A program made the position numbers and the translations under genes. Source: an uncultured Verrucomicrobiota bacterium (GTDB lineage Bacteria; Verrucomicrobiota; Kiritimatiellia; CAIVKH01). Taken from it: 64,000 bases of DNA. Location: the NCBI GenBank assembly GCA_937872895.1, contig CALMUP010000038.1, positions 62,001 through 126,000 on the forward strand. The letters are read 5' to 3'. The notes beneath the pieces are model-generated. The model was given only the letters and a program-made list of their open reading frames with translations. It made no database searches and was not told the DNA's origin. Positions 58,889 through 60,471 of this stretch are shown here, piece after piece (the first letter of the stretch is position 1; every line of letters starts with the position of its first letter).

Positions 58889-58994
58889 GCACGAATGAAG
58901 GGCCGATACCCTAGGAAACGGGGGGGCGTTTGTCAATCTTGAGGGCAATGGAAGAATGGTTGATGGTTGATGGGGAATGAGCGGTACAAGGGGG

Positions 58995-59022
58995 CTGTAG
59001 TTCCGGCGTTATACGCCGGAAG
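58995..59022 (+). repeat. CTGTAG hairpin (CCGGCG type), copy 1
   Basis: CTGTAG is followed by the stem TTCCGGCGT-TAT-ACGCCGGAA. The GTAG leader plus hairpin resembles REP elements. Confidence 0.75.
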
Positions 59023-59115
59023 GGGATGAGAACGGGGATGGGGAAGAATGGTTGATGGGGGATGGACGGTGCAAAGGGACAGGGTGGCAAGGGCGCAAGG
59101 GGGGGAGAATGGGTG

Positions 59116-59145
59116 GCCGCCGGAGGCGGGTCCGCCTTTGGCGGG
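59116..59145. repeat. GGCGGGTCCGCC palindromic interspersed element, copy 2
   Basis: The element reads GCCGCCggaGGCGGgTCCGCCtttGGCGGG, matching the copy at 703-731 in all four CCGCC/GGCGG blocks with changes only in the spacers. Confidence 0.75.
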
Positions 59146-59187
59146 ATGGCTGATGGTTGATGGGGATGCCTAGGTGGTTGGTTCGAA

Positions 59188-59216
59188 CTCTCCGGCGTAC
59201 AACGCCGGAGCTACAG
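59188..59216 (-). repeat. CTGTAG hairpin (CCGGCG type), copy 2, inverted
   Basis: On the minus strand, CTGTAG is followed by CTCCGGCGT-TGT-ACGCCGGAG. The outer pair is C-G instead of the T-A of other copies, so base pairing is kept. Confidence 0.75.
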
Positions 59217-59243
59217 GGGTGTGGTGATGTGCGGAGCTGTTTG

Positions 59244-59271
59244 CTGTAGTTCCGGCGTTATACGCCGGAAG
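59244..59271 (+). repeat. CTGTAG hairpin (CCGGCG type), copy 3
   Basis: CTGTAG followed by TTCCGGCGT-TAT-ACGCCGGAA, identical to copy 1. It ends about 12 bases beyond the stop of the acyltransferase gene. Confidence 0.75.
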
Positions 59272-59282
59272 GGACCTGTCGC

Positions 59283-60188
59283 TTAACCGAACGAGGGGTC
59301 GAGGACCCAGCGTTTGTTGTACCAGAAATACTGGCCGGGATCGCGGCGGATCTCGGCGTCGAAGCGGGCCATGATGATCGTGAGCATCCGGGCGATGTCG
59401 TCGTGTTTGTCGAGCGATGGATCCGGGAAGATGGGGTCGTGGACGACGATCTGGTGGCGGGTCCAGCCAACCCGGCGCACGTAGGCGGTGATGACCGGGG
59501 TTTCGGTGTGGCGGGCGAACAGGCAGGTGCCCGCATTGAGGTACGCCTCGCCGCCGAGGAACGAGACCCGCACCGCGCCGTCGGGCGATTTGGCGCGGAT
59601 GTCGGGCAGGATGGTGAAGACCTCGCCGGCGCGGATCCGCTTGGCGATCTGGCCGAGGGCCTTGCTGTGCCGCTCGATAGCCCCGACCCCGGCCGCCTCG
59701 CGGATCCGGTTGAGGTAGGCGGTGACGAGGGGGTTGGACTGGCCGCGCATCATGACGAACAAGGGAAGGCCCAGTAGCCGCACCGTGAACCCCGCGAGTT
59801 CCCAATTGCCCATGTGGCAGACCGCCATGGTGAAACCGCCCCGGGTCCGCTGGCGCTCGAGCAGCTTGCCGACCTCGGTGTAGTCGACCAGGCGGTCCAC
59901 CTCGGCCCGCGTCCACCGCGGCGCACGGGCGATCTCGACGACATTGAAGAAGATGTTGCGCCAGGAGGTCCAGGCCCAACGGCGCAGGTCCCGCTCGGGG
60001 ACGTCCGGCCCGAGCACCGACCGCATGCGCCGCCGCGCCTCGGCCGCGCGCTTCGCGACAAACGGATACATCAATGCGGCGAGCACCCAGCCCAGCGCCA
60101 GCGCCCCGCGCAACGGCAACACCTGCATCAACGCGGTCGCGCCGCGCAGGAAGCCGTATTCAACGATGTGCTTGGTCCGGTAGGCCAT
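59283..60188 (-). CDS. Lysophospholipid/lipid A-type acyltransferase (LpxL/HtrB family)
   Basis: A 301-residue inner-membrane acyltransferase that adds an acyl chain to lipid A precursors or a related lipid. The catalytic H-x4-E motif is in VCHMGNWELAG, followed by the family's LFVMMRGQSNPLV and later AGEVFTILPDIRAKSPDGAV and FARHTETPVITAYVRR. The N-terminal hydrophobic stretch (LPLRGALALGWVLAALMYPF) anchors it. The ATG at 60188 starts MAYRTKHIVEYGF; in-frame sequence further upstream is repeat-derived. Repeats flank it on both sides. Confidence 0.9.
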   Translation of the reverse strand: MAYRTKHIVEYGFLRGATALMQVLPLRGALALGWVLAALMYPFVAKRAAEARRRMRSVLGPDVPERDLRRWAWTSWRNIFFNVVEIARAPRWTRAEVDRLVDYTEVGKLLERQRTRGGFTMAVCHMGNWELAGFTVRLLGLPLFVMMRGQSNPLVTAYLNRIREAAGVGAIERHSKALGQIAKRIRAGEVFTILPDIRAKSPDGAVRVSFLGGEAYLNAGTCLFARHTETPVITAYVRRVGWTRHQIVVHDPIFPDPSLDKHDDIARMLTIIMARFDAEIRRDPGQYFWYNKRWVLDPSFG

Positions 60189-60471
60189 GCGGCCAGTGTG
60201 GCAGAACCGGGGCAAGGGTTCAACGGCGCAAGGGGACAAGGGGACAAGGTGACAAGGGGGCAAGGGGACAAGGAATGGGAGGAATGGTTGATGGTTCATG
60301 GTTGATGGGGATGGGGAGGGGGAAGAATGGTTGATGGGTGATGGGGATGGGGAATGAGCGGGGCAAGGGTGCAAGGAAACAAGGGCGCAAGGGGGCTGTA
60401 GTTCCGGCGATATTCGCCGGAAGCGAGCACGGGGGGATGTGGTGAGGAGCGGCGTGGGGCTGGGCGACGGG
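60189..60471. repeat. ACAAGG and TTGATGG repeat cluster with GTAG hairpin
   Basis: Bases 60215-60275 are iterations of GGGGACAAG/GTGACAAGGGG. 60275-60360 repeats AATGGTTGATGG and GGGGATGGGG. 60361-60395 has GCAAGGAAACAAGGGCGCAA. The fourth CCGGCG hairpin follows. No gene is present. Confidence 0.8.
60396..60422 (+). repeat. CTGTAG hairpin (CCGGCG type), copy 4
   Basis: CTGTAG followed by TTCCGGCGA-TAT-TCGCCGGAA. The T-A pair next to the loop in copies 1 and 3 is A-T here, a compensatory change that keeps the stem. Confidence 0.75.

Follow-up and report, generated by a model that had tools for sequence, protein, structure and literature searches.

Hairpins led by CTGTAG in an uncultured verrucomicrobial bacterium are very probably the REPs of a RAYT system

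REP elements are copied around genomes by RAYTs, which are domesticated transposases. RAYTs and BIMEs were described in 2010 (PMC2817692), and GTAG repeats followed in 2013; Opitutus terrae (Verrucomicrobia) has several families of them, and the main text describes dimers, clusters and complementary stem variants (PMC3733652). In Pseudomonas and Stenotrophomonas, abundant REPs without a cognate RAYT "appeared quite often" and were ascribed to loss of the RAYT or to a change of its flanking REPs (PMC3686654). Loop positions are critical for the group 3 systems, which is not the case for TnpA-REP of E. coli (PMC8266576). A search for the phrase "repetitive extragenic palindromic" in combination with Kiritimatiellae found no papers in the collection searched. 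Because GTAG repeats of Verrucomicrobia and REPs without RAYTs have already been reported, the novelty of the hairpins described here is modest: they make up a new family (CCGGCG) of an ordinary, known kind of element. The main text of the 2013 study prints neither CCGGCG nor CTGTAG; its family consensus sequences stand in a figure.

The window, i.e., the whole stretch of 64,000 nucleotides that was analysed, corresponds to positions 62001-126000 of contig C38 in a genome (G000) of 3.87 Mb and 51 contigs. It carries four solo REPs, which lie among a tRNA gene (from an Rfam scan), an acyltransferase-like gene and a sulfatase-modifying-factor-like gene (the two protein-gene names were assigned by reading the open reading frames):

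58995..59021, plus strand: solo REP, T-type, CTGTAG TTCCGGCGT-TAT-ACGCCGGAA
59190..59216, minus strand: solo REP, C-type, CTGTAG CTCCGGCGT-TGT-ACGCCGGAG
59244..59270, plus strand: solo REP, T-type, CTGTAG TTCCGGCGT-TAT-ACGCCGGAA
60396..60422, plus strand: solo REP, T-type with an A-T loop-closing pair, CTGTAG TTCCGGCGA-TAT-TCGCCGGAA

All four had been recognised in the initial annotation, which placed the start of the inverted copy about two bases off (59188 instead of 59190). The stem changes it described are also present: in positional order, the loop-adjacent pair reads T-A, T-A, T-A and A-T, and the outermost pair T-A, C-G, T-A and T-A. The hairpins at 58995 and 59244 have the same sequence throughout. 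Exact matches to CTGTAGNNCCGGCGNNNNNCGCCGG occur four times in the window (58995 +, about 59190-59216 -, 59244 +, 60396 +), against a mean of 0.41 chance matches in shuffled sequences even when three mismatches are allowed. The copies at 59190-59216 (minus strand) and 59244 (plus strand) are neighbours with GTAG facing GTAG, and because of this orientation they do not form an outward REPIN. The copy at 59244 lies directly 3' of the acyltransferase-like gene and the one at 60396 is intergenic, flanked by two genes. Low-complexity extragenic sequences (ATGGTTGATGGTTGATGGGG, AAGGGGACAAGGGGACAAGG, ACACGCGAAATACGCGAAAA, CGCGGATTTCGCGGAGGACGCGGATGA) surround the REPs, both in the window (58955-59160 and 60211-60395) and at locus L040 on contig C30 (480-540 and 820-850). 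Two small adjoining palindromes, CCGCC-GGA-GGCGG and CCGCC-TTT-GGCGG, lie between the REPs at 59117-59145.

The genome was searched with the pattern CTGTAG-[T/C]TCCGGCG-loop-CGCCGGA[A/G], and such a plain pattern sufficed to find the family because its members are so uniform. The search gave 92 exact copies, a number that rises to 110 in 3.87 Mb once a single mismatch is tolerated; the reversed control pattern had no match in the same genome. In every exact copy, CTGTAG stands directly 5' of a 9-bp stem, within the distance of 0-2 nt between GTAG and hairpin that marks the GTAG superfamily. The copies are strongly extragenic (10 of 90 within open reading frames of at least 250 aa, against a background of 80%). 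Contig ends near REPs of this family or its sister family (see below) number 18 out of 102, where 2.9 were expected, and these REPs account for part of the fragmentation of the assembly. In the class, 287 other genomes, the genus-mate among them, gave no match to the same pattern; the family is so far private to one verrucomicrobial species.

The initial annotation had also claimed that structure is kept while sequence changes, and the compensatory change at two stem pairs is real. Among the 91 copies read for the detailed analyses, the outer pair is T-A in 41, C-G in 41, A-T in one, T-G in one and unpaired in seven, and the loop-closing pair is A-T in 48, T-A in 41, C-G in one and unpaired in one; all four combinations of the main states are seen. 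The statistics rest on 33 distinct sequences; since copies share descent, these are not independent events. Standard pairing is found at the two variable pairs in 30 and 32 of these 33, a level reached at either position by none of 20,000 shuffles, and changes on both sides fill 29 cells (11.8 in shuffled data). The covariation score, 0.213, falls to 0.072 on shuffling and does not exceed 0.098 on sliding. The other seven of the nine pairs are invariant and hence uninformative on covariation.

Many copies are paired into larger units. When plus and minus neighbours lie less than 400 bp apart, 17 of 20 do so at exactly two spacings, and the outward doublets, which mainly have these spacings, form REPINs of 83 or 91 bp (from TGTAG to CTACA). 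Most REPINs join a T-type (TTCCGGCG...CGCCGGAA) to a C-type arm (CTCCGGCG...CGCCGGAG); the spacer sequence recurs across copies, and the end-to-end fold of a REPIN as single-stranded DNA has a z of -7.1. Arrays with a period of 124 bp are found on contigs C31, C23 and C12.

These features place the hairpins close to several described systems. As in the group 3 REPtrons of Stenotrophomonas (Sm) and Marinomonas (Mb; PMC8266576), GTAG stands beside a short-looped, perfectly paired hairpin of about 8 pairs, and there are multiple REP families per genome; loop positions matter there in vitro, and here loops follow the RAYT clade. The stems, loops and phylum differ from those of the group 3 systems, and the RAYT group is here judged from the shape of the REPs. 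GTAG families 17, 19 and 20 of Opitutus terrae and other PVC bacteria share, according to the main text of their description, the superphylum, GTAG-tagged palindromes, dimers, clusters and stem variants (PMC3733652). The REP/BIME system of E. coli (TnpA-REP, PDB 4er8) likewise has GTAG plus a hairpin, a related Y1 HUH transposase and mixed REP types within BIMEs, but its REP stems are bulged, whereas the CCGGCG hairpins are perfect. We regard the hairpins as very probably the REP family of a RAYT system, which, from the shape of its REPs, may be group-3-like. They would be the non-autonomous REPs of such a REPtron: the unit would be CTGTAG with a hairpin of up to nine pairs, and two inverted units with their GTAG ends outward would give the 83- or 91-bp REPIN, able to fold end to end as single-stranded DNA. 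The RAYT, a Y1 HUH transposase, would bind GTAG and the hairpin in single-stranded DNA and then copy the element into new extragenic sites, and the arrays would have been built afterwards by tandem duplication.

Six genes of the genome score over the NCBIfam REP_Tyr_transpos cut-off:

C30:23369-23848 (L040:1369-1851, minus strand in L040): C30 RAYT, 160 aa
C30:37.6-39.8 kb of G000 (L074, L075, L269): two near-identical RAYT genes with GGAG-headed hairpins, not GTAG
C3:90.2 kb: C3 RAYT, flanking REPs GTAGYA-GCGCCTC
Contig C16: C16 RAYT, flanking REPs GTAG-AGCCGGS-TTTAY
Contig C26: C26 RAYT, flanking REPs GTAG-CCCGGGGTT-CAAG

The first of these is, by its sequence, a RAYT, i.e., a predicted Y1/HUH transposase. 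It scores 115 bits with NF047646 (cut-off 80) and matches PDB 4er8 (TnpA-REP in complex with a REP hairpin) both by sequence and by its predicted fold (model pLDDT 79, TM-score about 0.57); its PDHVH (HxH motif) and the tyrosine of EYVRQNP are aligned with those of 4er8. The gene sits amid 13 CTGTAG hairpins. On both sides these are CTGTAG-CGGGAYC hairpins, the sister family, interleaved with CCGGCG copies; the nearest are CTGTAG-CCGGGACC-GGT and CTGTAG-ACGGGATC-GGT, and two exact and one degenerate CCGGCG copy lie about 100-700 bp past the 3' end of the gene. None of the assembled RAYTs has a CCGGCG copy immediately beside it, and in the flanks examined none lies near any RAYT other than this one. 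The initial reading was right in kind: with the high copy number, the covariation and the presence of RAYT genes, none of the three outcomes that it named as refuting was observed. One of the six RAYTs has CCGGCG copies within 0.7 kb, with immediate flanks made up of the sister family. The GGAG-headed hairpins (GGAGGGGCACGCTCCGCGTGCCC, GGAGGGGCAGGCTCCCGCCTGCCC) occur genome-wide in 15 exact copies, of which the two near-identical RAYT genes account for 10. Some REPs of the C3 type (GTAGTA-GCCGCTC-CGC) stand apart from their RAYT (L267 1358-1480, L270 1011-1040), and one has a CCGGCG copy as a neighbour at about 100 bp. The genome also encodes longer Y1_Tnp proteins of about 250-370 aa (C13:37394, C20:87803, C38:146480, and others on C19, C3 at 25 kb, C9 and C27), which fall under the NCBIfam RAYT cut-off and mostly lack recurring GTAG hairpins nearby; the C13 and C20 hits have equal scores and are perhaps a recent copy.

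Most of the named C30 RAYT relatives belong to Verrucomicrobiota (Kiritimatiellae, Opitutae, Chthoniobacterales and others). At 80 of these relatives, GTAG hairpins reach 1.61 per kb up to 500 bp from the gene, a 13-fold excess over the 0.12 per kb at greater distances. The genus-mate (G002) has a RAYT 57% identical to that of C30, flanked by CTGTAG hairpins with a different stem. Comparison with the same genome gave no pair of empty and filled sites: the orthologue of the acyltransferase-like gene has no GTAG hairpin and different neighbours, and this locus was rejected as evidence of insertion for lack of synteny.

Among RAYTs labelled by their loops, stems drift while the class of the apical loop follows the RAYT tree. 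We took loop labels from perfect-stem hairpins flanking RAYTs, left out RAYTs with other loop types and removed rows at least 90% identical, which gave 51 RAYTs (26 TNY, 25 GNY). The tree requires 3 changes of loop class, whereas 5000 shuffles required 17.4 on average and never fewer than 9. The rule was first seen in 80 loci and then extended, not blindly, to later loci, some of them from genomes of species already sampled. The exceptions are L195 and L290. A strict version of the rule, in which all TNY RAYTs except L195 form one clade, was rejected (p-AU 0.007), the GNY case L290 being nested among them. GNY loops accompany the clade of the C30 RAYT, and the loops of the CCGGCG family are TNY.

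The nearest anatomical match comes from a genome of the same class and another family (G110, locus L257), where a frameshifted RAYT of the TNY clade lies between TTCCGCCG/CTCCGGCG REPINs on both sides. Like the CCGGCG REPINs, these have a TGTAG head, a T-type and a C-type arm, the CTCCGGCG stem and an outward pair of about 85 bp; unlike them, they have TTCCGCCG as the T-type stem and 6-nt loops, and there are four such REPs only, all at the RAYT gene. Because this is the closest anatomy found, the likeliest cognate of the CCGGCG family would be a RAYT of the TNY-loop clade, like the decayed one of G110, that is now lost or unassembled, a proposal to which we give roughly even chances. The link to the clade of the G110 RAYT draws more on the likeness of stems and doublets than on loops, because that RAYT, with its 6-nt loops, is unlabelled.

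A possible, if somewhat doubtful, alternative is that the C30 RAYT moves both the CCGGCG and the CGGGAYC families in trans through their common CTGTAG head, like the y and z REPs in the BIMEs of E. coli. It is kept in play by the interleaving of the two families, whose CTGTAG heads are identical, and by the CCGGCG copies near the gene; 10 of 16 CGGGAYC clusters lie at most 500 bp from a CCGGCG copy, although 1% of the genome is that near to such a copy. However, the two families may merely share tolerant extragenic sites or be co-duplicated, the hairpins adjoining the gene are all CGGGAYC with GGT loops, and the C30 clade goes with GNY loops rather than the TNY of the CCGGCG family. It is improbable that the family is moved by the C3 RAYT, the sole one of the TNY clade in the assembly. 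This protein is the closest in the genome to the TNY-clade profile, at 158 bits with nothing nearer (the G110 RAYT, itself in the profile, scores 223), and a TGT loop is present in one hairpin beside its gene, but its flanks show another stem and foot; the same holds for the orthologue in the genus-mate, a genome that lacks CCGGCG. A role in transcription, with the hairpins retained as intrinsic terminators or RNA elements, is very unlikely: they are extragenic and one directly follows a gene, but none of the four window copies is followed by a T-run, and the CCGGCG copies occur in both orientations and in head-to-tail REPIN arrays. An intrinsic terminator was rejected by a terminator scan, which picks none of them, and a known RNA family by the Rfam scan, whose only match is a tRNA. 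Least likely of all is a palindromic repeat class unrelated to RAYTs, e.g., integron attC-like sites or MITEs of a DDE transposon, since the repeats are short, palindromic and arrayed but their head-plus-hairpin layout is that of RAYT-flanking hairpins across the phylum (the array contigs being annotated in part).

Returning to a cognate RAYT of the TNY clade, we tentatively suggest that the apical loop of REPs in Verrucomicrobiota may be an inherited recognition mark of the RAYT clade (GNY or TNY) that outlasts the stem, and that the CCGGCG REPs may be relics, amplified by a TNY-clade RAYT that has since vanished. The genome, from a verrucomicrobial lineage that has received little study, holds a rich REP/RAYT population with about six REP families. 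The association between loop class and RAYT clade is the evolutionary counterpart of the loop recognition seen in vitro for group 3 TnpA-REP, and it supplies testable pairings of REPs and RAYTs. If the suggestion is true, REPs that lack a RAYT would be assignable to a RAYT lineage through their loop class.
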